This document shows positions 44,231 through 58,615 of a stretch of DNA of 64,000 nucleotides, piece by piece; the stretch's first letter is position 1, and each line of letters starts with the position of its first letter. The notes below the pieces were generated by a model. It was not told where the DNA came from. It searched no databases and saw only the letters and a program-made list of their open reading frames with translations. Origin of the DNA: Natrinema longum (GTDB lineage: Archaea > Halobacteriota > Halobacteria > Halobacteriales > Natrialbaceae); assembly GCF_017352095.1 (NCBI RefSeq), contig NZ_CP071463.1:2356001-2420000 (forward strand), in the 5' to 3' direction. Both the position numbers and the translations under genes were made by a program.

Positions 44231-44935
44231 TCAGTAGAGTGTAGAGAGTCCGAGGACGACGGCGACGGCGAGGACGGGGTAATCGACTCGAGAGAAAGCC
44301 AGCGGCGGAAGCGTGGGGTTCCACGCGAAACACCGTGCCTGGAGCGCGAGTGAGAGCCGATCGGCGCGGTCGAACGCGCGGGTCAGCCCGAGGATGCCGA
44401 TGGTGCTCGCGCGCTCGACCGCGCCGCGTTCGGTCCCCAATCGCGCGGCCATCGCCTCGCGGATCGTTCGGAGATCGTTCCGAACCACGGGGAGAAACCG
44501 GAAGACGAGGCCGACGCCGAGGCCCAGTAGCTGGCCGGGTTTCCCGGGAATCGTCCGCTGGATCGCGGCTCGAGACGCTCGTACCGGGGTCGAGCGGACG
44601 TAGGCCGCGCTGACGAGCAGGATGAGCAAGACTCGGTAGCTCGCGAGCCCCGACGCGACGGCGGCCGATCGATCGAACCAGGGCGGACCGAGCGTCACGC
44701 CCGCGAGCAGCGGCGCGAGGACGAGGACGAACAGTGCCATCCGATAGGCGACGAGGGTCCGACGGAGCGACACCCGCGCCGTGGCCATCACGAGCGCCGT
44801 CACTGCCGAGAGGACGACCAGCGCCCGCGGCGACGTATGTGCGAGGGCCGTCGCGGCGAACCCGATCTGGACCGCCAGCTTGGATCGAGGATCGACCCGG
44901 TGTGCGAACGTATCGTCGGGTTCGTACGTTAGCAT
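44231..44935 (-). CDS. ECF transporter transmembrane component EcfT (BioN-like)
   Basis: 234 residues, about five hydrophobic segments. Couples ATP hydrolysis by the EcfA dimer to substrate capture by BioY. Seen: start MLTYEPDDTFAHRVDPRSKL (the DPRxK motif of the family), a central helix set, and the two coupling helices with the Ala-Arg-Gly-type motif degenerate as REAMAARLGTERGAVERAST and ALQARCFAWNPTLPPL. Terminal gene of the unit bioY-ecfA-ecfT, 49 bp after ecfA. Biotin specificity is inferred from bioY. Confidence 0.84.
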   Translation of the reverse strand: MLTYEPDDTFAHRVDPRSKLAVQIGFAATALAHTSPRALVVLSAVTALVMATARVSLRRTLVAYRMALFVLVLAPLLAGVTLGPPWFDRSAAVASGLASYRVLLILLVSAAYVRSTPVRASRAAIQRTIPGKPGQLLGLGVGLVFRFLPVVRNDLRTIREAMAARLGTERGAVERASTIGILGLTRAFDRADRLSLALQARCFAWNPTLPPLAFSRVDYPVLAVAVVLGLSTLY

Positions 44936-44984
44936 CGCTCCGGTCCTCCTTGCCGTCTGGGTACCCCTGATTCGTCGCTCGCCA

Positions 44985-45689
44985 TCATCGGTCGGGAACG
45001 CGGACCTCGAGTCCCTCGAGTTCTCCGAGCGCGTCTTCGGGCGGGCCGTCGACGGCGACCTGTCCGTCCCGCATCGCGATCACCCGATCGGCCAGTCCAA
45101 GTACGTCCCGGAGATCGTGGGTCGCGAGCAGGACGCCGGTCCCGTCGGCCGAGAGGGCCTCGAGCCGAGCGAGGACCGACCGGCGCGCGGGCTCGTCGAG
45201 GCCGGTAAAGGGTTCGTCGAGAACGAGATGCGTCGGCTCCATCGCGAGCGCACCGGCGATAGCGACGCGGGACTGTTCGCCGCCGGAGAGGGCGTCGATC
45301 CGTTCGTCATCGCGGCCGGCCATGTTGACGGCCTCGAGGGCGGCTTCGACGCGGCGGTCGATCTCGGTACGCTCGAGGCCGAGGTTCTCGGGGCCGAACG
45401 CGACGTCCGCGCCGACGGTCGCCGAGACGAACTGATCGCGAGGATGCTGGAACACCATGCCGACGCTCGAGCGGGCCGCGATCAGGTCGTCCGCGACGGA
45501 TGTCTCGTCGACGAGAACCTGACCAGTGTCGGGCGTCAGTAACCCGTTGCAGTGACGCAGGAGCGTCGTCTTCCCGCTGCCGTTCGCGCCCGCGAGCAGG
45601 ACGAACTCGCCGTCGTCGATCGTCAGCGAGAGCTCCCCGAGAACGGGGACGTCGTCGAACGCGTAGGAAACCGATCGAAATTCGATCAT
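44985..45689 (-). CDS. ECF transporter ATPase (BioM/EcfA-like)
   Basis: 234 residues, a single nucleotide-binding domain. Seen: Walker A GANGSGKTTL near residue 35, Q-loop VGMVFQHPRDQFVSATVGAD, the signature ALSGGEQSRVAIAGALAM, Walker B HLVLDEPFTGLD and switch His in LLATHDLRDV. One ATPase gene suggests a homodimer, as in bacterial BioMNY. Start 45689 (ATG) or the GTG at 45710; the ATG begins the conserved MIEFRSVSYAF. bioY's stop lies 13 bp upstream of this ATG. Confidence 0.88.
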   Translation of the reverse strand: MIEFRSVSYAFDDVPVLGELSLTIDDGEFVLLAGANGSGKTTLLRHCNGLLTPDTGQVLVDETSVADDLIAARSSVGMVFQHPRDQFVSATVGADVAFGPENLGLERTEIDRRVEAALEAVNMAGRDDERIDALSGGEQSRVAIAGALAMEPTHLVLDEPFTGLDEPARRSVLARLEALSADGTGVLLATHDLRDVLGLADRVIAMRDGQVAVDGPPEDALGELEGLEVRVPDR

Positions 45690-45702
45690 CGTCTCGTCGG
45701 GA

Positions 45703-46293
45703 TCACGCACCGACAGGCGTGATCCGCCCGGATCTCACGATCGCGATCGCGGCGGCCATTTTGAAGATCTCGCCGGGAACGTACGGGAGCACGCCGGCCG
45801 TAATGGCTGCCCAGGGCGCCAGCTCGAAAAGCCACGCCAGGTAGGCAGCCCCCATGCCGTAGATGACGATCGTCGCCATACCGAGCGCGACGACGACGAT
45901 CGGAAGCGGGGCGGTACGGAGATCACGCAGCGTCGTTCCGCGGTGAACGACGAGGCCGGTCACGGCCGCAGCGACCGGATAGGCCCACAGATAGCCGGCC
46001 GTGTCTCCGACCAGGATGCCGAATCCGGACTCCATCCCGGCGAATACCGGGACGCCGACGGCACCCGCCGTGAGGTACAGCAGGATCGACGCCGTCCCCC
46101 AGACCGGTCCCAGAACGAGCCCGGCGAGGAAGACGAACAGCACCTGAAGCGTGATCGGCGGCGCCCCGGAGATGGGAACCGGAATCGTTACTAGTACCGA
46201 CGCGCCCATCAGCGCCGCGAGCATCGCCGCCCGAGCGAACTGCCGGACGACGGTGTCGTCGACCAATTCGACCGAATTCCGTTCCGTTGCCAT
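45703..46293 (-). CDS. bioY: Biotin transporter substrate-capture protein BioY
   Basis: 196 residues, six hydrophobic segments. S component that binds biotin in the membrane. Seen: FARAAMLAALMGASVLVTIP, the family motif ITLQVLFVFLAGLVLGPVWG, YLTAGAVGVPVFAGMESGFG, DTAGYLWAYPVAAAV, and PYVPGEIFKMAAAIAI at the C-terminus. The size and the LxPGD/E-type ending are as in bacterial BioY. First gene of bioY-ecfA-ecfT. A BirA-type operator lies 13 bp upstream at 46306-46337. Confidence 0.93.
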   Translation of the reverse strand: MATERNSVELVDDTVVRQFARAAMLAALMGASVLVTIPVPISGAPPITLQVLFVFLAGLVLGPVWGTASILLYLTAGAVGVPVFAGMESGFGILVGDTAGYLWAYPVAAAVTGLVVHRGTTLRDLRTAPLPIVVVALGMATIVIYGMGAAYLAWLFELAPWAAITAGVLPYVPGEIFKMAAAIAIVRSGRITPVGA

Positions 46294-46339: not shown

Positions 46340-46789
46340 ACAGTGGCGAGTGGATTGACAGGTCCTCTCGAGGCGTGTCCCTCGCGAAATCGATTTCCGA
46401 ACGGTCCGAAACAGCGTGCTTCTACTCGGAACGTGCAACTATCACGGTTCCTATCAGGTGTTCCGTATTCTCCGGCTGGAAGCCACCACCCTGCCGTCCA
46501 CGCCGATCTCGAGTTCGGTCGAAGCGGGTAATGGTTGCTTGTCTCGGTTCGGAAACCGAAACGAACGGCGGTCTTATGCGCTCTTTCGACCCCGTGATGG
46601 AGAAATGCGTCTCGGTAGTAGGTGGACTGTCGATCGGGGGAATCGCGTCGCGAAACCGGGTGTCAAACGTGCCGACGACGTGACGACGCTTCGTTGGACG
46701 GGATGGCGCGTCCGCGAGCGTCCGGTTCGAGGACGCCCGGCCACGGCAACTGTAGCGGAAACGGAGGGAACAGCGGGAGGGCCGTCCCG
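46340..46789. other. Divergent intergenic region before the glutamine-rich repeat protein
   Basis: About 450 bp without a gene. The 13-bp palindrome TTCGGAAACCGAA at 46548-46560 also occurs, in the other orientation, at 46326-46338 within the biotin operator. A GTCTTATGCG box lies at 46571-46580. In-frame codons upstream of 46790 are basic and not part of the protein. Confidence 0.45.
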
Positions 46790-49700
46790 ATGAGCTGGAG
46801 TCGAACCACGATCGCGGTCGTTCTGGTCGCGGCTGCGATGGTCGGAAGCGTCGTTGCACTGCCGGTCCTCGGCGGCGGCCTCGAAACCGCCGAGCAGGGC
46901 GATCGCGCGGGTGCCGGCGCGGCCGTCGAACCCGTGCCCGCCGATGGGACGGCCTCGCCCGCGGGTGGGACAGGACCGTCACAGGCCGCGTTTCAGGTGG
47001 ATCAGGCCGATTCACAGCCGGCAGCCGACGCCGCGTTCGATCCGGTGGACCCGCCTGCGACCGGGATGGATGACGCTGCGACGGCTGACGACGGGAACGA
47101 ACGGGCCGTGGTGCAGGCTGACCACGAGGAAGCCCTCGAGGAAGGGGTCAGCGAGGGAGTCGCGCTCGTCCAGTCACAGGGCGTCGAGGTGACCCAGGAA
47201 CAGCGGGCGGCAGCGCTCGAGGGTGCGCGAGAAGCGGCCGCGCAGTATCAGACCGTCGAGGCCGAGCAGGTCCAGGCGGCGACGAAAGGTGCGGTTCACG
47301 GCACGTTGATCCAGAAACAGTCGGTGAACGCGACGCAGATTCAGTCCGCGGTGGGCGGCGCGACCGACGGCGGGCTCTCGCAGTCCCAGTCGGTGAACGC
47401 GACCCAGCTGCAGAGCGCGACCTGGGGTGGGGCACACGGCGCGATCGCCCAGAGCCAGCACGTGACCGTCGAACAGTTGCAGGTCGCGACCAGCGGCGCG
47501 GCCGCGGGTGCCGCGAGCGAGGCCGGCGCGAAAGACGTCGGTGCCGTCGGGACGATTCAGGAAGCCGCGCAGGGGGCGGCGTACGGCGTCCTGACGCAGT
47601 ATCGGGCGATTTCGGTCGAACAGCGCCAGCGGGTGACCCTCGAGCACGTCCAACACGCGGCGGCCGGAGCCGCGGCGGGAGCGCTCGAGGGGAGCACGCG
47701 TGCGGTGCTCGAACAGGAGCAACGAGCCGACGTTCGACAGGAGCAACGAGCCGACGGAGGGCAGGAGGACGGCATCGAGGTCGAGCAACGCCAGCGGGTG
47801 ACGATCAAACAGGTGCAGACGGCCGCAGCCGGGGCGGCGAAGGGGGCGCTCGTGCAGGAACAGGCGGTCTCGGTCGAGCAGACGCAGGCCGCTGCCCGCG
47901 GTGCAAGCCGCGGCTCGCTGAAACAGCTCCAATCGGTCAGCATCGAGCAGTTCCAGCGGATCTCGATCGGGCAGGTCGCGGAGGCGTCCTCCGGTGCCGC
48001 GACGGGTTCGATTTCCCAGAGCCAGGACGCAACCGTCGAGCAGATCCAGGCCGCCGCTGACGGGAGCGCGGGCGGCGTGCTCCAGCGGCAGTCGGTCTCG
48101 ATCACCCAGATTCAGTCGGCTGCGATCGGTGCCGCGGAGGGTGCGGTCACCAGCGCGGTCCAGCGCCAGGAGGTGTCACTCGAGCAGGTACAGGCCGCGG
48201 CGTTCGGTGCCGGTTCGGGTGCGGTGACCCAGACGCAACTCGTCGGCGTGACGCAGGTCCAGCGCCTCGCCCAGGGCGGCGCGAGCGGCGCGCTCGTCCA
48301 GTCACAGGCGGCGACGGTCACGCAGGTCCAGACGGCGGCGCGAATCGCGACCGTGGAGACGGCTCGAGTCGTCCAGTCCCAACGGATCGGTATCACGCAA
48401 CTCCAGACGTTGACACAGGAGACGGCGGCCACCGCGACCGCCTATGCCATTCGGGAGGATACCGACGACGTCACGGTGATCTCCCAACGCGTCGAAGTCG
48501 AAGTCGTCCAGCGGATCGAGACGATCGATCGGATCGAGGGAACGGCTTCGATCGACTTCCGTGACCAGGAGTCCGACAGCGAGACCGTCACGATCGAGGA
48601 CGTCTCCCTCTCGGAGGGCGGCTTCGTGGCCGTCTATGGGGGGATCGCCGTCGACGCCGATCCCGACGATATCCTCGGCGTCTCGAGCTATCTCGAGGCG
48701 GGCGATCACGAGAACGTCACGGTCGAATTCGACGAACCGCTGGCGGAGGACACGTCGCTCGTGGCCGTCGTCCATCACGATACGAACGACGACGAAACCT
48801 TCGAGTACGCCGACTCCGGTGGCGAGGAGGATGTCCCGTACGTCGCCGAGAGCGGGGCACCGGTACTCGACGGCGCGTTCGTAACGGTGGCGGACGAACC
48901 GGGCGACGCTCCCGAGGCGACGCTGTCGGTCTCGGATCAGGTCGGCGACGGTGAAACGCTCGAGGTCGAGGCGGCGAACGCCTCGGTCCCGTACACCGTG
49001 ACCGCGGAGTACGACGGGAACGCCGTCGAGAGCGACACGTTCGACGCCGACGAAGGGGTGACTAACCTCACGCTCGACCTCGAGCCGCCACTCGAGGCGA
49101 ACGCGACCGTCGACGTCTCGGTCGTCGGCGAGGACGGGACGACGCTCGCGAACGACTCCATCGAGTACACCGTCGCGGACGACCCCGTCGACGAACCGAC
49201 GGCGACGCTCTCGGTCGACGATCAGGACGGCGAGGGAGAGACCCTCGAGATCGACGCGGCGAGTGCGTCCGTGCCATACGTCATCGCAGCCGAGTACGAC
49301 GGTGAACGGGTCGACAGCGAACGGTTCGAAGCGAACGAGACGGTCGCGGAACGGACGCTCGACCTCGAGCCGCCACTCGAGGCGAACACGAGCGTCGACG
49401 TCTCCGTTCGCGCCGTGGCCGACGACGCGGTGCTGGCAGCCGACACGATCGAGTACACGGTCGTCGAACCCGATCCCACGGACCCCACGGCGAACCTCAC
49501 GGTGGCCGATCAGACGGGTGACGGCGAGACGATTACCGTCACCGCGGCCAACGCGTCGGTCGAGTACGCCCTCACGGTCACCGACGAGAACGGCACGCAA
49601 CTCGCCGAGAGCGAGACGTTTGCGGCCAACCGGACGATCGGTCCGACGGAGTTGGCTCTCGAGCCAGCCCTCGAGGAGAACGCGACGCTGGACGTCGCCG

Positions 49701-51172
49701 TCGTCGCGGCCGAGGACGGAACGCCCATCGAGACGGACTCCGTCGCGTACACGGTCGACAGCGAACTCGAGTCCTTCGACGTCGAGTTCGAGAGTTGCTC
49801 GCGGGCAGTGGTCACCGCCTCGCTCGAGGAGGGCGATCAGGTCGCCGCGAGCACCGGTTTCTACGATCAGGCGGGCTTCGGGAACACCATCATCGAAGAT
49901 TACGTCACCGTCGGCGAGGACGTCGACGCACCGTTTACGGGTACGATCGTCTTCGAGATCGGCGAGGAACGCAACGTGACGACCGACGGCGACGAAGTGC
50001 TCGTCGAGGTGCCCGATTACGGCACGTTCGGCACGTACATCTCCGGTATCAGTTCGCCCGAGGCGATCCCCTTCGCCGGAATCGACTACCCGAATCCGTC
50101 GGCGAGGGCGTGTGACGAGGAGGCTCGTCCGGAACTCCCGTCGCTTTCGGTCGAGGAAACGACACCGACCGACGACGGCATCGACGTGACGTTCGGCTAC
50201 GAGAACCCGAACGATGCGGCGATCGCCGGAAACAGTCAGTTCGTCGAGGGAACGACGACCGACGAACCGCCGAGCGAACTCGAACCCGGCGAGGGAACGG
50301 TCACGGTCGAGTGGACGCCCGAGAGCGACGACGAACGGCTCGTCTGGGAAGTCGACTTCGCGAACTACGGCTACGACGACCCGGTGACTGCGGCCACGCC
50401 GCCCGCCGGCGATATCGAACCGGCCGATCCCGCGAATTTCAGCGTCTCGATCACCGACGTATCGAGTCCCATCGAACAGGGTGAGCAACTCGAGGTCGAA
50501 ACCGAGATCGGAAACGTCGGCGGCGAGGCGGGCACCCAGAACGTCTCGCTTGCGGTCGACGACCGCACGGTCGACTCGGAACCGATCTCCCTCGAACCCG
50601 GTGAGATCCAGGCCGTCTCGTTATCGACCGACACGGACGATCTCGAGCCCGGCGAGTACACGGTCGAGGTCGCGACCGACAACGAGACTGCCGAGGGGAC
50701 CGTCACCGTCGAGGAGAGCGGTGAGCCGGCGACGTTCGCCGTCGCCGACGTGTCAGCGCCTACGAGCGGGGAGCCCGGTGAAGAAGTGACGGTGACTGCG
50801 ACGGTCGAAAACCGGGGCGACCTCGAGGGAACGCAGACGGTGGCCTACAGCGTCGACGAGCAGCCCGTCGCCGAGGCCACCGTGACGCTCGCGGGCGGGG
50901 ACGCGGCCGAGATCGAATTCTCGTCGACGTTGCCGGCGGGCGCGTCGACGCACACGATCACGACCGACGACGATCAGGCGTCAGTGACGATCGAAGCGAC
51001 TCCACCGGCGGAACCTGGACCGCCCGCAGAACCGGGTCCACCCGACGAGCCGGGGCCGCCGGCGGAACCTGGGCTGCCTGCAGAATCGGACGCCCCCGAC
51101 GAATCGGGATCACTCGGCGAAGCCACTGCGTCCGCGCCGACCGAGACAGCGCCCGGTGGCGGTGACGGATAG
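46790..51172 (+). CDS. Giant secreted glutamine-rich repeat protein with DUF7282-like and CARDB-type domains
   Basis: 1460 residues. Signal peptide MSWSRTTIAVVLVAAAMVGS. Residues about 125-545 hold roughly 16-18 degenerate 23-residue repeats of the pattern QxQxVxxxQxQxAxxGAAxGx (for example QSQSVNATQLQSATWGGAHG). Next come a DUF7282-like beta domain (about 584-702), three repeats of about 95 residues (708-993) each containing D-G-E-T-L/I and a closing EYTV or AYTV, a Cys-containing domain (997-1190), two CARDB-like domains (1213-1403) and a Pro-rich tail of PPAEPG units. There is no C-terminal anchor or PGF motif. Many N-x-S/T sequons suggest N-glycosylation by AglB. Function unknown; adhesion or surface-layer association is plausible. 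Confidence 0.85.
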   Translation: MSWSRTTIAVVLVAAAMVGSVVALPVLGGGLETAEQGDRAGAGAAVEPVPADGTASPAGGTGPSQAAFQVDQADSQPAADAAFDPVDPPATGMDDAATADDGNERAVVQADHEEALEEGVSEGVALVQSQGVEVTQEQRAAALEGAREAAAQYQTVEAEQVQAATKGAVHGTLIQKQSVNATQIQSAVGGATDGGLSQSQSVNATQLQSATWGGAHGAIAQSQHVTVEQLQVATSGAAAGAASEAGAKDVGAVGTIQEAAQGAAYGVLTQYRAISVEQRQRVTLEHVQHAAAGAAAGALEGSTRAVLEQEQRADVRQEQRADGGQEDGIEVEQRQRVTIKQVQTAAAGAAKGALVQEQAVSVEQTQAAARGASRGSLKQLQSVSIEQFQRISIGQVAEASSGAATGSISQSQDATVEQIQAAADGSAGGVLQRQSVSITQIQSAAIGAAEGAVTSAVQRQEVSLEQVQAAAFGAGSGAVTQTQLVGVTQVQRLAQGGASGALVQSQAATVTQVQTAARIATVETARVVQSQRIGITQLQTLTQETAATATAYAIREDTDDVTVISQRVEVEVVQRIETIDRIEGTASIDFRDQESDSETVTIEDVSLSEGGFVAVYGGIAVDADPDDILGVSSYLEAGDHENVTVEFDEPLAEDTSLVAVVHHDTNDDETFEYADSGGEEDVPYVAESGAPVLDGAFVTVADEPGDAPEATLSVSDQVGDGETLEVEAANASVPYTVTAEYDGNAVESDTFDADEGVTNLTLDLEPPLEANATVDVSVVGEDGTTLANDSIEYTVADDPVDEPTATLSVDDQDGEGETLEIDAASASVPYVIAAEYDGERVDSERFEANETVAERTLDLEPPLEANTSVDVSVRAVADDAVLAADTIEYTVVEPDPTDPTANLTVADQTGDGETITVTAANASVEYALTVTDENGTQLAESETFAANRTIGPTELALEPALEENATLDVAVVAAEDGTPIETDSVAYTVDSELESFDVEFESCSRAVVTASLEEGDQVAASTGFYDQAGFGNTIIEDYVTVGEDVDAPFTGTIVFEIGEERNVTTDGDEVLVEVPDYGTFGTYISGISSPEAIPFAGIDYPNPSARACDEEARPELPSLSVEETTPTDDGIDVTFGYENPNDAAIAGNSQFVEGTTTDEPPSELEPGEGTVTVEWTPESDDERLVWEVDFANYGYDDPVTAATPPAGDIEPADPANFSVSITDVSSPIEQGEQLEVETEIGNVGGEAGTQNVSLAVDDRTVDSEPISLEPGEIQAVSLSTDTDDLEPGEYTVEVATDNETAEGTVTVEESGEPATFAVADVSAPTSGEPGEEVTVTATVENRGDLEGTQTVAYSVDEQPVAEATVTLAGGDAAEIEFSSTLPAGASTHTITTDDDQASVTIEATPPAEPGPPAEPGPPDEPGPPAEPGLPAESDAPDESGSLGEATASAPTETAPGGGDG

Positions 51173-51271: not shown

Positions 51272-51562
51272 TCAGTGCTGGTGGCCGGTCGCTTCGCCGA
51301 ACGTGACGCCGAACCGTTCCTCGAAGAGATCCATCACGCGGGCCTCCTGAGCCTCGAGTTCCTCGTCAGCGTCCTCGCCGTGGTGGACGATGTGGTGGGC
51401 GCGGCTGGCAAAGGAGAGCAACACGACGTCGCCGACCGTTTCGGTGTCGGTCTGATCGCCCTCGGCGACGAGGTCGATGAGGCCGGATGGAACCGTCACT
51501 TCGTCGGTCTCGCCGTCTTCGGAACTGATCGAGAAGGTCGTCGTCTGGACTTCGTCTGTCAT
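51272..51562 (-). CDS. Small conserved haloarchaeal protein (DUF7545-like)
   Basis: 96 residues, acidic. Seen: TTTFSISSEDGETDEVTVPS, GLIDLVAEGDQTD, ASRAHHIVHHGEDADEELEA and a C-terminal FEERFGVTFGEATGHQH. The His clusters may bind metal. I associate the pattern with DUF7545 from memory. The ATG at 51562 is preferred because the previous in-frame residues are basic. It is convergent with the giant repeat protein. Confidence 0.72.
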   Translation of the reverse strand: MTDEVQTTTFSISSEDGETDEVTVPSGLIDLVAEGDQTDTETVGDVVLLSFASRAHHIVHHGEDADEELEAQEARVMDLFEERFGVTFGEATGHQH

Positions 51563-51682
51563 ACTTCTACGGTCGGGAACCCTCCGTAAAGATGCTGTGG
51601 CTTGCACCGGAGCTGTGGGGGGGACCGCGTCGGGGGCCAGGCGACGCCAAACTGGCGTGATACGGTCTACTGTCCGTCATCG

Positions 51683-51717
51683 CCGGTGGGACCGAGACCG
51701 CCCTGCGGTCCCACCGG
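51683..51717. repeat. Hairpin with perfect 12-bp arms
   Basis: CCGGTGGGACCG - 11-base loop - CGGTCCCACCGG. It lies between the divergent DUF7545-like gene and the 47-residue gene. Possible transcript structure, mobile-element remnant or protein site; no second copy was found in the window. Confidence 0.6.
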
Positions 51718-51791
51718 TAAATCGGTACAGCAAACCGTATGAGACGTCGGCTCCCGTGGCGTTTTTGCTCGTCGACGACGAACGCTCGACT

Positions 51792-51935
51792 ATGCCATCC
51801 GTCGAACTCGAGGAAGAGACGCTCGAACGGCTGGATGCACTGCGTGTCGACGATGAATCCGACGACGAACTCATCAACGAACTCATCAACATCTACGAAA
51901 CGAGCGAGTACACGCTCTTTCACGCCGGGGACTGA
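51792..51935 (+). CDS. 47-residue conserved haloarchaeal protein (DUF7557-like)
   Basis: Short acidic helical protein: MPSVELEEETLERLDALRVD, then a helix ELINELINIYETSEYTLFHA. The first part resembles antitoxin/ribbon-helix-helix-like small proteins, and similar sequences are called DUF7557 (from memory). No toxin gene is adjacent. The ATG at 51792 is the only good start; a GTTTTTGC stretch lies about 28 nt upstream. Confidence 0.68.
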   Translation: MPSVELEEETLERLDALRVDDESDDELINELINIYETSEYTLFHAGD

Positions 51936-51977
51936 GGAGCGCGCCGGCCGGTCGGTCTCCGACTGACTGGCGGCGGC

Positions 51978-52439
51978 TTACTCGTCGCCAGCCGTGCGCC
52001 GGATCGTCTCCCACTTCCCCTTCGATTCCAGGTGGGACTGGAGTTCGTCGGCGTACTCCTGTGTGAGCCGCTCGGCCGCCTCGCGTTGTTCTCTCTCCGA
52101 CGGACCGCTGTTGCCGCCGATGCCGAGTGCACCCATGATAGAGTCGAACACGCCACCGCCCGACGAACTCGAGCCACCGCCGTCCCCCTGTCCGCCCATC
52201 GCACCCATCCCCGTCTGTACGTTCTCGAGTTCGGGGATGATCCCGTCTATCTTGTCGGTGTTGGCCACGATTCGTGCCCGATCGGGATCGGCGGGGTGCT
52301 CGATCTCGAACTCCGTGGCGGTCATGATCAGGCTCCACTGCTGGTTGGAAAACTGCGACGACTCGATCCGCGTCGAGAACTCCTGATCGACGGTCATTCG
52401 CTCCCCGACGATCCGGTCCGTCCACGGGTTGTCGCTCAT
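51978..52439 (-). CDS. Conserved haloarchaeal protein (DUF5799-like)
   Basis: 153 residues. Seen: MSDNPWTDRIVGERMTVDQE, SSQFSNQQWSLIMTATEFEI, a Gly/Ser-rich linker with GGGVFDSIMGALGIGGNSG and the helical tail LTQEYADELQSHLESKGKWE. This is a pattern I recognise as DUF5799, widespread in haloarchaea with no known function. The ATG at 52439 is the conserved start. Confidence 0.8.
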   Translation of the reverse strand: MSDNPWTDRIVGERMTVDQEFSTRIESSQFSNQQWSLIMTATEFEIEHPADPDRARIVANTDKIDGIIPELENVQTGMGAMGGQGDGGGSSSSGGGVFDSIMGALGIGGNSGPSEREQREAAERLTQEYADELQSHLESKGKWETIRRTAGDE

Positions 52440-52629
52440 GGCCCCCGGTTCGATCGGTGGCTGTATCAGCGTTTCCCCTCGCCCTGCCGGCGGACGCTGT
52501 CGCTCGCGTTCACCGGTCCGTAGGGGATGATCCGCCGTTCGCGTTCCACAACCCCTCAATCCGCTCGACATTCTTTCGCGGTAGAACAACGTTCATATGG
52601 TGTCTTGTTGTATGATACCACACATCATA

Positions 52630-53195: not shown

Positions 53196-53690
53196 CTACT
53201 GGCCGTCCGACAGCGCTGCCGGGAGAAACGGTCCCACGTCGTCGTGGACGAACTCGACGTAGTCGTCGTTCAATCGCCTGCAGAACAGCGTGAACGTCCC
53301 GTCGGAGTCGATGGTCTCGAGTTTCGACTGCCCGGAGGAGGGGTCGTAGTAGGCGGGAACGAACACGGCTGTCCGTCTCTCGGGATCCTTCTCGACGACG
53401 AGCAGGTAGATCATCCTGCCGTCTTCGGCACGGAAGACGTCCACGTCCGCGAACACGCAGTCCGCGGTCAGTGACTCGAGGTCCTCGTACTCGGGGCCCG
53501 GGAGGACCACGTCGAGGCCCGTCCGCATCTCGGAGTCGACGAGGACGGAGTCCCCAGGATGGAGTTCGAGGGTCGTCCAGCCGTCGTCGCGGTACTCCGC
53601 TGCAGTCGCCGCCATGTCCTCGATGACGGACTCCCAACCGGACTGTGCCGGACCGTTGCTGGTGGTTTCAGCCGTCGGGTTCTCGCTCAT
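53196..53690 (-). CDS. Conserved haloarchaeal protein (DUF7529-like)
   Basis: 164 residues, acidic. Seen: [52 protein letters not shown] and [20 protein letters not shown] with [14 protein letters not shown], followed by a C-terminal [10 protein letters not shown]. The pattern matches DUF7529 from memory; function unknown. It is divergent from the peptide transporter ATPase gene. Confidence 0.74.
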
Positions 53691-53772
53691 GTCTGCATCG
53701 CGTGCATCACCGGAGATAAACGTTCCCCAAATCCCGCAAACTATTTCATTATTGACTCAAGAACTCCTTTCA

Positions 53773-56763
53773 GTGAACGATCTTCTATCCGTCTCCGGAC
53801 TTCGCACGCAGTTCGATACCAAACGTGGCGCAGTGAAAGCCGTCGACGGTGTCGACCTCACGATCGAGGAGGGCGAGACCGTCGGCCTCGTCGGCGAGTC
53901 CGGATCTGGCAAGAGCGTGACCGCACTCTCAGCAATGGACCTCGTGGACGACCCTGGCGATGTCGTGGCCGGGCGCGTGTCCTTACGGCGCGCGAACCTC
54001 GCCGCCGAACTCGCAGTCGAGTTCGACGACGCCGTCGTTCCCTACCCCTTCGAACTCGTGGACGCCGTTCGGGAACTCGTCGCGGACCTCCGCATCGACA
54101 AGGGGGTGGAGTCGGCCGGGTCGGAACTGCGCGGCATGGCCGCCGACCTCACCGACCACGACGACCCTGCGGCGCTCGCGCCGGCCCTGCGCGACGCCGC
54201 CGATCGACTCGACGACGGGACGGACGAGTCGACGGTTGCGGACGCCCTCGAGGAGGCGGTCGAGGACGCCGCCGACGGGTTCGTTTACCTGGACGAGGCG
54301 GCGCGCGACCGACTCGAGCGCGACTCGAACGGCGACCCACCCGCGGTCGAGGAGGGCGTCGTCGATCTGACGGCCGCGCCCGAGGAGGCGATGCGGAAGG
54401 TCCGGGGCAGCGAAATGGGGATGATCTTCCAGGACCCGATGACGTCGCTGAACCCCGCGGTGACCGTCGGCGAACAGGTCGCGGAGTCCCTGCGACTCCA
54501 CCAGTACGGCGAACGGAAACGGGACACGTGGGTAAACGCCGTCCGGGAGATCCTCCCGAAGTTCCGTGGCAAAGAACACGACGAGGAGGTCATGGCGGAC
54601 GTCGTCGAGATCCTCACCGAGGTCGGCATCCCGGAGGCGACAACGCGCCTCGAAGAGTATCCCCACGAGTTCTCCGGTGGCATGCGCCAGCGCGTCCTCA
54701 TCGCGATCGCGCTCGCGTGCCAGCCGAGCCTCCTCATCGCCGACGAGCCCACGACCGCCCTCGACGTGACCATCCAGGCCCAGATACTCGACCTCATCGA
54801 CGATCTTCAGGAGGAGTTCGGGATGTCGGTGCTGATGATCACCCACGACCTCGGCGTGGTCGCGGAGACCTGCGACCGAGTCGCGGTGATGTACGCCGGC
54901 GAAATCGTCGAAGAGGGGCCCGTCGAGGAAATCTTCACCAACCCGAGCCACCCGTACACGTACACGCTGCTGGAGTCGATCCCAACGGAGGAGAAAGACC
55001 GTCTGACGCCCATCGAGGGCAACGTCCCGGACCTCATTGACATGCCCGACGGCTGCCACTTCGCCGACCGGTGTCCGTGGGCCCAGCCCGAGTGCCGCGA
55101 CGGCGAGATTCCGTTCCGCCAGCACGGTCCGGACGACATCGACCACCGCTCGAAGTGTATACTCGAGTCCTTCGACGAGGACGAGTACGGCGACGAGGGC
55201 GTCGCCTCCGCGGTCGAGCACGACGTCGGCGAGCCCATCGTCGAACTCCGCGAGATGCGGAAATACTATCAGCAGGAAGACGGCGTCCTCGACCGATTCC
55301 TCGGCGAGAAACCGAGCGTGAAGGCCGTCGACGGCGTGAGCTTCGACGTTCACGAGGGCGAGACGCTCGGACTGGTCGGCGAGTCCGGCTGTGGCAAGTC
55401 GACTGCCGGTCGTGCCATCCTCCACCTCAATCCGCCGACGGACGGGACGGTGGTGTTCGCCGGTGAAGAGCTCGGCGACCTCTCGAAGTCGGAGCTCCGG
55501 GAGAAGCGCAAGGACATGCAGATGGTGTTCCAGGACCCGATGTCGAGTCTCGATCCGCGGATGACTGTCGGGCAGACCATCATGGAGCCGCTGAAGATAC
55601 ACGGTCTCCCGGAGACCGATCCCGACGTGGTGACGCGCGCTGCGGTCTCGACGACGGGTATCTCGGCGGATGCGGTGTCGGTCGACGTCGCGGACAACGT
55701 GGACGCGTTACTCGGGAGTACCGACGGGGAGGTCGTTGTCCCCGTGGAGGTCGCGGTCGCAGACGGCGACGTTACCGTCGACGTCGAGGGCGCACTCGAC
55801 GTGACGACGGACGTCACGCGCGAGGACGGCCGCATCACGAGCGTACAGGTGGACGTGTCTGCGGGGGGCTCGAAGCGCACGCTCCTCCGTCGCCGCGTCT
55901 TCCAGCTCCTCGAGGAGGTCGGGCTCGACGAGAGTCAGTACGGCCGCTATCCCCACGAGCTCTCCGGCGGGCAGCGCCAGCGCGTCGGTATCGCTCGCGC
56001 CCTGGCGGTGGATCCGGACTTCATCGTCGCCGACGAACCGGTGTCGGCACTGGACGTGTCGGTCCAGGCCCAGATCATCAATCTCCTGGAGGACCTCCAA
56101 GAGGAGTTCGGGTTGACGTACCTGTTCATCGCTCACGATCTTTCGGTCGTCCGGCATATCTCGGATCGCGTGGCCGTGATGTACCTCGGCGAAATCGTGG
56201 AGATCGCAGCGACCGACGACCTGTTCGCGGACCCGAAACATCCGTACACGAACGCGTTGCTGTCGGCGATTCCCGAGCCGGATCCCCTGGCGGACACCGA
56301 CGACCGCACCATCCTGAAGGGTGACGTCCCCTCCCCCATCGACCCGCCGTCGGGCTGTCACTTCCGGACGCGGTGTCCGTCGATCATTCCACCCGCGGAC
56401 CTCGACATCGAACAGGAGCGCTACCGCGAAGTCATGTTCTACCGGCAGCGCGTGGAGTCCCGAGACATCGATCTCGAGGCAGCTCGGGAGAAAGCCCCCG
56501 ATGAGGAACCAGTGGCCCGCGCGGTCGCAGATGGCGGCAGTAGCTTCGCGGCGGCCCTCGACGCACAGTTCTTCGACGGACCGCTGTCAGGTCGGGCTCG
56601 CGAGGCCGTCGACGCGTCCTACCGCCACCTCGACGACGGCGACTGGGACGCCGCCGCGGCCGTCCTCGCGGACACGTTCGAAAGCGTCTGCGAGCGGTCG
56701 AACCCCACACTCGAGGACGGAGACCATCCGGCAGCCTGCCATCTCTTCACCGACGCCGAGTAG
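53773..56763 (+). CDS. Peptide/oligopeptide ABC transporter: fused DppD-DppF ATPases with domain insertions
   Basis: 996 residues with two nucleotide-binding domains. Domain 1: Walker A GESGSGKS near residue 40, Q-loop [14 protein letters not shown] near 213, signature FSGGMRQRV near 300, Walker [13 protein letters not shown] near 319. Domain 2: [10 protein letters not shown] near 536, [19 protein letters not shown] near 583, LSGGQRQRV near 730, [12 protein letters not shown] near 749. Each ends with the oligopeptide_HPY Cys motif ([18 protein letters not shown]). Domain 1 has an insertion of about 130 residues between Walker A and the Q-loop, domain 2 one of about 90 residues after the Q-loop. 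GTG at 53773 follows an AT-rich TCATTATTG box. First gene of the importer operon, before the binding protein. Confidence 0.86.
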
Positions 56764-56943
56764 ACGGACCGAGCCCACGCCGCTGTGCCAGTTGTCCTCC
56801 GGTACCGTCTCCGTAAGCGGCCAACACGGCACCGAGATAGTTTCGGACAACTTAATTAAATATTTACCCCAATATGGGGAAAACTTGGTCGATTTTGACT
56901 TCTTTTGTCCGTCAACTGTTTAATTCCCATGCGCATCCGTAAG

Positions 56944-56953
56944 TACTATATAC
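56944..56953 (+). promoter_or_regulatory. Promoter of the peptide-binding protein gene
   Basis: TACTATATAC centred about 27 nt before the ATG at 56975, in an AT-rich stretch unlike the rest of the operon. The palindrome CCCCA-ATA-TGGGG (56867-56879) lies upstream. The second promoter would allow excess binding protein over ATPase. Confidence 0.55.
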
Positions 56954-56974
56954 ATCGATGCACGCCGTAGTGTT

Positions 56975-58615
56975 ATGTCAGGCGATAGTGGCCAATTTGA
57001 CAGACGCAGTTTCCTGAAGTCCGCCGGAAGCGCGACGGTCGTCGCAACCGCAGCGAGTTCTCTTTCCGGCTGTCTCGGCGGTGACAGTGGCAACGGAAGC
57101 ACGCTCCGATACGGTCGCAGTGCACACTCGAAAACCCTCGACCCACAGAACACGACCAGTGGCGAGGTTTCGAAAGTCACGAACCAGATTTACGACGGAC
57201 TCATCGACTTCGAACCCGGCGAGGCGGCCATCACGAAGAGCCTCGCGACCGACTGGTCGATGGACGGCAAAGACGTCACGCTCGAGCTCCGCGAGGACGC
57301 CCAGTTCGACGACGGGACCGACTTCACCGCCGACGACTTCATCGCGACCTACCGGCGGTTCGTCGACGAGGAGTACGAGTACTACGTCGAGGAGAGTTCC
57401 GTCTACGGGCCGTTCACGCTCGGTAACTGGATCGACTCCGTTTCGGCCGACGGCGACTACACGCTGAACATCACGCTTACGGATCCCTACGCACCGTTCC
57501 TGCGAAATCTCGCGATGTTCGCTGCCGTCGTCCTTCCCAAAGACGGTATCGAGAACGACTTCGACTTCACCGCAGACGCTAACGGGACCGGCCCGTTCCA
57601 GCTCGACGAACTCGACGACTCGAACGGCCGTATCCTGCTGACCCCCAACGACAACTACTGGGGCGATGGCCCGAACGTGGACGAGCTCCTGTTCCTCGAG
57701 CGCGGCCAGAACTCGACGCGCACGCAGGCGCTCGTCGAGGGCGAACTCGATATCATCGACAACCTCGGTCCCGACAACATCGGCACGGTCGAGGAATCCG
57801 ATGCCGCAGAGATCCAGTCCGGACAGGGTATCAACGTCGGCTACATGTCGATGAACCAGTCCCGGATGGAGGCGTTCCGCGATCCCAAGGTCCGGAAGGC
57901 GATCAGTTACGCCATCGACACCGAATCCATCGTCAACGAGGTCTACTCCGGTATCGCGGAACAAGCCGATCAGCCGTGTCCGCCGGCTCTCTTCGGGCAC
58001 AACGACGATCTCAGTCCGTACGCCTACGATCCGGAGGAGGCCCAGTCCCTGCTGGACGAAACGGAGTACAGTGACGGCTTCTCCTTCGACTTGACGACCT
58101 TCCAGAACGCCCGTGGCTACAACCCGGCACCGCTTCCGACGGCGGAAACCATCCGAACGAACCTCGCCGAGATCGGCATTGACGTCACGATCGACGAACG
58201 GCAGTTCTCGGACTACCTCACCTACACTTCCGAGGGGAAACACGACGCGTCCCTGGCCGGTTGGTACACGGACAACGCCGACCCGGACAACTTCTACTAC
58301 GTCCTCCTCCACCCGCAAGTCGAGTCCCCCGACGGACAGGACTGGGTGGACTGGGGAACGGAGGGATTCAACACGTCCAACCGGAGCGCGTGGGCGAACC
58401 AGGACTACATGGAACTCGTCGAGGAAGCCCAACAGACGTCAGACGAGGACGAGCGTACCACCCTCTACCACGAGGCGGCCCAGATCGCTCGCGAGGAAGC
58501 GCCGTGGGTCTTCATCGACTACGCCGACGAAATCCGGGGCGTTCGTAACAACGTGAACAATTACACGATTTCGGCTATCGGTGGTCCACACCTCCACCTG
58601 GTCGACCTCGAGTAG
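56975..58615 (+). CDS. Peptide/nickel ABC transporter binding lipoprotein (DppA/OppA family)
   Basis: 546 residues. Seen: Tat motif DRRSFLKSAGSATVV with lipobox SLSGCLGG near residue 33, then TLRYGRSAHSKTLDPQNTTS at the start of the mature domain, WSMDGKDVTLELREDAQFDD, FRDPKVRKAISYAIDTESIV in the middle, and APWVFIDYADEIRGVRNNVN near the end, all typical of SBP family 5. Anchored outside the membrane by lipid, it captures oligopeptides (or another SBP5 ligand such as nickel complexes). The permease genes follow 49 bp after its stop. Confidence 0.93.
   Translation: MSGDSGQFDRRSFLKSAGSATVVATAASSLSGCLGGDSGNGSTLRYGRSAHSKTLDPQNTTSGEVSKVTNQIYDGLIDFEPGEAAITKSLATDWSMDGKDVTLELREDAQFDDGTDFTADDFIATYRRFVDEEYEYYVEESSVYGPFTLGNWIDSVSADGDYTLNITLTDPYAPFLRNLAMFAAVVLPKDGIENDFDFTADANGTGPFQLDELDDSNGRILLTPNDNYWGDGPNVDELLFLERGQNSTRTQALVEGELDIIDNLGPDNIGTVEESDAAEIQSGQGINVGYMSMNQSRMEAFRDPKVRKAISYAIDTESIVNEVYSGIAEQADQPCPPALFGHNDDLSPYAYDPEEAQSLLDETEYSDGFSFDLTTFQNARGYNPAPLPTAETIRTNLAEIGIDVTIDERQFSDYLTYTSEGKHDASLAGWYTDNADPDNFYYVLLHPQVESPDGQDWVDWGTEGFNTSNRSAWANQDYMELVEEAQQTSDEDERTTLYHEAAQIAREEAPWVFIDYADEIRGVRNNVNNYTISAIGGPHLHLVDLE

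Follow-up and report, generated by a model that had tools for sequence, protein, structure and literature searches.

Related repeat and surface proteins

Helical tandem repeats occur in natural proteins such as TAL effectors, whose repeat unit of about 34 residues holds two helices. Glycine-zipper families (PF13441 and PF13436) pack helices through a GxxxG motif and are not known to form long, flat tandem arrays. Bacterial fibrillar adhesins are long surface proteins composed of adhesive and stalk domains (PMC8286594), while the alpha-helical tandem repeat FD15 (8ugc), described as flat, stems from a study of designed flat calcium carbonate templates (PMC10721895). Haloarchaeal surface proteins with DUF7282 (PF23951) and CARDB (PF07705) domains provide a further comparison. 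DUF7282 is without function in Pfam, and a search of the open-access literature returned no paper on this domain or on the 23-residue repeat considered here.

The protein analysed is encoded in Natrinema longum, within a 64,000-nucleotide stretch of contig NZ_CP071463.1 (hereafter the window), and carries a module of tandem glutamine-rich units without a sequence match in Pfam, NCBIfam or the PDB. Like FD15 and TAL effector repeats, the module is predicted to be a helical tandem repeat. Unlike FD15, to which it is unrelated by descent, it would consist of 23-residue one-helix units with a Gly zipper and Gln loops; it also differs from TAL effector repeats in unit size, in showing no sequence match to them and in belonging to a probably exported protein. 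The GxxxG motif recalls the glycine-zipper families, whose Pfam profiles match 9 of 51 members weakly (best E 7e-4) and the window protein itself not at all. Similarity to bacterial fibrillar adhesins concerns architecture only, namely a helical module with strings of predicted Ig-like domains, whereas the protein is haloarchaeal and contains no known adhesion domain by Pfam. Both DUF7282 and CARDB exceed their Pfam cut-offs, yet the array is part of neither family and some relatives carry it without these domains. This appears to be an undescribed surface-type protein.

A conserved 23-residue repeat

The open reading frame spans 46622-51172 on the forward strand, with a GTG at 46622 giving the longer frame. 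The ATG at 46790 is preferred because homologues start with a basic run and hydrophobic segment that match it; the resulting 1460-residue coding sequence (46790-51172, +) rests on the open frame, homologue N-termini and orthologues in the same genus.

The original prediction of 16-18 glutamine-rich units over about 420 residues was borne out. Across aa 121-550 (47150-48439), residue autocorrelation is maximal at lag 23 (0.263, against a 99.9% quantile of 0.182 for the shuffled maximum over lags 1-79). Scanning with a 23-position profile identifies 16 canonical units at aa 128-551 (47171-48442, +), each scoring 34-57 bits, while the 99% quantile for shuffled sequences is 11.7 bits. Their consensus, QxQxVxxxQxQxAxxGAAxGxLx, comprises a putative loop (QxQxV), an N-cap (S/T/N/D) and a helix (xxQxQxAxxGAAxGxL). 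One additional non-canonical unit, unit 6 (aa 244-277; 47519-47620, +), contains the most conserved motif of the array, QEAAQG[AS]A[YF]G, with E258, A259, G262, G266 and Y/F265 all at 100% among 51 homologues. The regular Gln spacing proposed earlier holds in so far as 23 residues is the dominant interval, but it is imperfect, with intervals of 22, 24, 25, 26 and 31 (23+8) also present. An insert rich in Q at aa 301-332 (47690-47785, +) differs in length among aligned species.

Glutamines are the most conserved sites of the unit. Mean conservation across the 51 homologues is 0.95-0.98 for these residues (Q1 0.96, Q3 0.98, Q9 0.95, Q11 0.98), followed by 0.90 for A13, 0.89 for G16 and 0.93 for G20. 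Positions 2, 4, 6, 12, 15, 19 and 23 are the most variable, and sites 12/15/19/23 are spaced as in a helix. Among 1,189 distinct units, 83% carry S/T/N/D/G at position 6, a sequence signature of a helix N-cap. The module is also biased in composition (Q 15.7%, A 19.3%). Aspartate and glutamate together make up 9.6% of it (47171-48529) versus 22-28% in the remainder of the same protein, and such low acidity is unusual for an exported haloarchaeal domain.

Predicted fold of the array

AlphaFold2 predicts regular stacked helices. For aa 105-307, five models agree (mean pLDDT 90.6-93.7; best pLDDT 93.7, pTM 0.91) on helices of 15-24 residues connected by loops. For aa 100-720 (621 residues), each unit is predicted as one helix of roughly 14-21 residues with short loops between, and an all-beta DUF7282 domain follows the array. 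The five models of this longer construct range widely (best 84.5, worst 43.9), and the Q-rich insert is poorly predicted (pLDDT <50 at model residues 209-234, aa 308-333). No beta-strands are predicted in the array of either construct, which led to rejection of a beta-solenoid, and the strands per unit expected of a curli-like or beta-solenoid protein are absent. Overconfidence of AlphaFold2 has been described for some repeats, in that case beta-solenoids (PMC11795689).

Helix direction was tested by mean-field coupling analysis (DCA) of 677 adjacent unit pairs (Neff 128). The strongest inter-helix couplings (21-14, 13-20, 18-13, 12-21, 14-19 and 16-17) fall on an antiparallel band (a+b ~33-35) that was never reached in 2,000 block permutations (p<1/2000). 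This band was recovered from Natrialbaceae alone (p 0.018) and from sequences outside Natrialbaceae (p<0.002, 0/500), and was absent from the controls with non-adjacent units (p 0.34) or shuffled partners (p 0.82). The alternation of positions 2, 4 and 6 had raised the option of a parallel, LRR-like solenoid (helix up, strand down) with true Gln ladders; this was rejected, as the 677 pairs show no parallel band (p 0.83). Because AlphaFold2 and DCA exploit information of one kind, in part from shared sequences, their results are not fully independent. As two lines of evidence, they indicate that each unit is one helix and that neighbours pack antiparallel through a Gly/Ala zipper.

The module therefore matches the alpha-helical tandem repeat class (alpha-solenoid in the broad sense) in having the same predicted helical element in every unit and, from the coupling band, antiparallel and touching consecutive helices. 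It appears to form a flat helical ribbon, neither a beta-solenoid nor a continuous Gln ladder. Of the earlier proposal of a solenoid or stacked-helix fibre with Gln ladders, the stacked helices stand. A continuous ladder is unsupported because Q1 and Q3 would lie in 7-residue loops on alternating edges, if packing is antiparallel, and Q9 and Q11 in the first helical turn. GAAxG, previously read as a turn, would instead form the helix-packing zipper.

Profiles of known repeat families (HEAT, ARM, TPR, Sel1, ankyrin) in Pfam or NCBIfam do not match the module. The best structural match in the PDB is FD15, which is weak (Z 8.6, rmsd 7.4, 195 aligned, TM 0.41), then come DHR designs and low-scoring natural helical repeats such as TAL effectors; for helical repeats, Z values of this size may reflect no more than a common arrangement. 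No convincing match to the predicted structure was found among natural folds in the PDB, a result that does not in itself establish the fold as new.

A candidate conserved face

Within 47297-47584 (+), several residues are 94-100% conserved at positions where most other units are variable. These are H170 of unit 2 (94%), W/Y/F212 (99% aromatic) and H216 (98%) of unit 4, and E258 (100%), Q261 (98%) and Y/F265 of unit 6. Conserved His, aromatic and Glu residues at exposed positions thus belong mainly to even units 2, 4 and 6; units 1 and 7 also hold conserved exposed residues, e.g. R.

Provided that all units are equivalent and each helix runs antiparallel to the next, the geometry would impose a two-fold screw along the ribbon, so that exposed helix sides would face opposite ways in odd and even units and loops would alternate edges. 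The conserved even-unit residues would then share one face, a lead from antiparallel packing and not proof. This face may be a binding or assembly site, a candidate defined by few positions.

Distribution and genomic context

The module is widespread among haloarchaea. Orthologues were present in 27/27 other genomes of the same genus in a sample of relatives, and a scan of genome records yielded 54 loci, mostly from Natrinema, Natronorubrum, Natrialba, Haloterrigena and related genera, with more distant ones from Halorussus, Haladaptatus, Halosimplex, Halorarius and Halomicrococcus. Even sampling of the order recovered the module from 87 of 293 genomes, belonging to 28 of 87 genera. In another family, which the loci suggest is the one containing Haladaptatus and Halorussus, 25/28 genomes carry it, often in more than one copy, and in a third family 4/57 do. 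Overall, its range covers nearly all Natrialbaceae and most Haladaptataceae, with sporadic occurrence in other haloarchaea. When 393 genomes were sampled evenly across the phylum, matches were confined to the order. Two plasmid records also contain relatives. A viral origin or carriage was rejected, as the module was not found in viral contigs (two scans), a phage collection or PHROGs.

The repeat module is ancient and strongly conserved. At the DNA level, tandem repeats within the array persist only as fragments, which suggests that the array is old. Orthologous arrays match one-to-one at 73-83% identity, while different units within one array share ~35%, indicating that units are not being homogenised. 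Unit number is also stable, with 16 units in 28 and 15 units in 11 of 41 Natrialbaceae.

In Natrialbaceae, virtually all loci with both sides present place the gene between a divergent bioY-bioM-bioN cluster and a DUF7545 gene. In the window, these flanks are BioN-BioM-BioY at 44231-46293 (-) and DUF7545/DUF5799 genes at 51272-52457 (-). No functional link to the BioY-BioM-BioN neighbours is claimed, since this synteny is absent from Halorussus and Haladaptatus loci. Further along the window, a 1117-residue frame (53410-56763, +) has at least two ABC ATPase domains with oligopeptide-type C-termini, an apparent OppD-OppF fusion, and is followed by a family 5 solute-binding protein (56924-58615). 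Two Natrinema orthologues (L009 and L013) have an in-frame stop, one TAA and one TGA, inside the aligned stretch; given open frames of 1413 and 1518 residues, this stop lies near the C-terminus.

Termini, outer domains and glycosylation

The N-terminal hydrophobic segment (aa 6-30; 46805-46879, +) may be a Sec signal peptide or an uncleaved signal anchor. A conserved A[LVF]PxL follows the hydrophobic run in 36 of 41 Natrialbaceae, in which the segment may be either a cleaved signal (e.g. SVVA|LP) or a retained anchor. The protein was originally described as lacking an anchor. This applies to the C-terminus in Natrialbaceae, but the long conserved N-terminal segment may itself be one. The hydrophilic C-terminus (...TETAPGGGDG) shows no PGF-CTERM/archaeosortase anchor (PGF motif, hydrophobic helix and basic end). 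A Pro-rich, non-hydrophobic tail, also proposed originally, is present (aa 1411-1460; 51020-51169, +) but not conserved among homologues. Halorussus relatives begin with an ordinary-looking signal peptide, followed by the module, Thr-rich linkers, DUF7282 domains and a C-terminal hydrophobic tail, while Haladaptatus forms are without this tail. Other relatives combine the module with TSP3 repeats and a CAP domain, or with a right-handed beta-helix.

DUF7282-like and CARDB-like domains do follow the array, as anticipated. DUF7282 (aa 586-699; 48545-48886, +) is matched by PF23951 (E 9.5e-36; 122.8 bits, gathering cut-off 27) and is predicted to be an Ig-like beta domain, with Ig-like structural matches of Z up to 8.2; the genome holds five matches to this family. 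CARDB-type domains (aa 1217 to about 1410; 50438-51019, +) are matched in two stretches by PF07705 (E 5.5e-9; 36.6 bits, gathering cut-off 22.7). Across the whole protein, Pfam otherwise gives only one sub-threshold Ig-like match, and NCBIfam none. Between these domains lie three tandem repeats of ~95 residues (aa 701-985; 48890-49744, +), the first two detected by TRF (period 285) and the third seen by eye in the translation. The following region (49745-50135, about aa 986-1115), with no Pfam name here, has relatives among numerous short proteins of the genus, and several of these contain an internal stop in the matched frame.

The protein contains 18 N-x-S/T sequons where 4.6 are expected (P 2e-8), 2 of them in the repeat array and 11 in the ~95-residue repeats (aa 706-985). 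This enrichment makes the protein a candidate for N-glycosylation by AglB. The connection drawn earlier to the AglB of the same window holds for the enrichment and for the presence of the gene (STT3/AglB, ~609-1301, -); proximity carries no specific link, because the gene lies at a distance of some 46 kb and is the sole copy in the genome. Near STT3/AglB, G+C drops to about 0.55-0.57 at 2-12 kb of the window, possibly marking a surface-glycan island.

Proposed role and alternative explanations

The protein is probably exported, multi-domain and similar to a fibrillar adhesin, with a flat helical ribbon bearing an even-unit site for ligand or assembly. Each unit would comprise a 7-residue loop (QxQxVxx) and one helix of about 16 residues, with consecutive helices packed antiparallel via Ala/Gly faces and Gln residues fixing the loops and helix N-termini. 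A stack of 16 to 18 helices would form a rigid slab roughly 15 nm long. The His, aromatic and Glu residues of units 2, 4 and 6 would make up one site, either for a ligand (a glycan, the S-layer or a neighbouring cell) or for assembly. In a fibrillar surface protein of this kind, the module may provide a rigid head or spacer, and the Ig-like, putatively N-glycosylated domains the stalk or outer modules. A surface role is argued from the signal or anchor segment, the Ig-like DUF7282, CARDB and the sequons, together with the Thr-rich stalk and hydrophobic tail in Halorussus. Should the signal peptide be cleaved in Natrialbaceae, the protein would be free in the medium and an adhesin role would be weaker.

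Two alternatives retain the same ribbon. It may have a structural role only, as a stiff spacer without a binding site that determines how high the outer Ig-like domains stand relative to the S-layer. The near-constant unit number in Natrialbaceae, the variety of attached domains in other taxa and the dominance of Gly/Ala packing in the conservation are all consistent with this. However, a bare spacer has no need of frozen H/W/E/Q/Y residues at exposed sites of units 2, 4 and 6, and the placement of the Halorussus module N-terminal to a Thr-rich stalk points to a distal end instead. A spacer is the less likely reading. Somewhat more doubtful is a self-assembling fibre or sheet, in which conserved Gln loops would join ribbons by their edges or faces into an extracellular matrix or an S-layer-associated sheet. 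A flat geometry would tile, the loop glutamines are almost invariant, and low acidity fits protein-protein contact, but DCA suggests that Q1/Q3 couple with Q9/Q11 and V7 inside the same unit, so these glutamines may merely stabilise the fold.

The remaining alternatives dispense with the ribbon. A beta-solenoid or curli-like amyloid repeat with inward Gln ladders would suit a period of 22-23 residues and the alternating QxQxV, but is very improbable given the all-helical array from AlphaFold2, the N-cap at position 6, the helical spacing of variable sites and inter-unit couplings that are antiparallel instead of forming a parallel in-register band. Least credible of all is a disordered, low-complexity Q/A/G sequence spread by repeat slippage. 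Its appeal lies in the biased composition, whereas the contrast in identity between orthologous arrays and between units marks an old, non-homogenised and constrained sequence, and unit number is conserved. The preferred reading of an adhesin-like ribbon can also be extended, speculatively, to a new natural architecture: a two-fold-screw, single-helix ribbon, Gly-zipper packed and Gln-clamped, forming a sticky or self-assembling fibre head with a His/aromatic site on one face.

Implications

Should the predicted structure be correct, the flat helical ribbon that protein designers construct as a template would already be in use in nature, and functional in near-saturated salt. The protein would also provide a named, testable surface component for haloarchaea, in which few structural proteins beyond the S-layer have been characterised. 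Finally, it would open a route to studying adhesion, aggregation or cell-cell contact in Natrialbaceae, a family in which nearly every member retains the gene at the same location.
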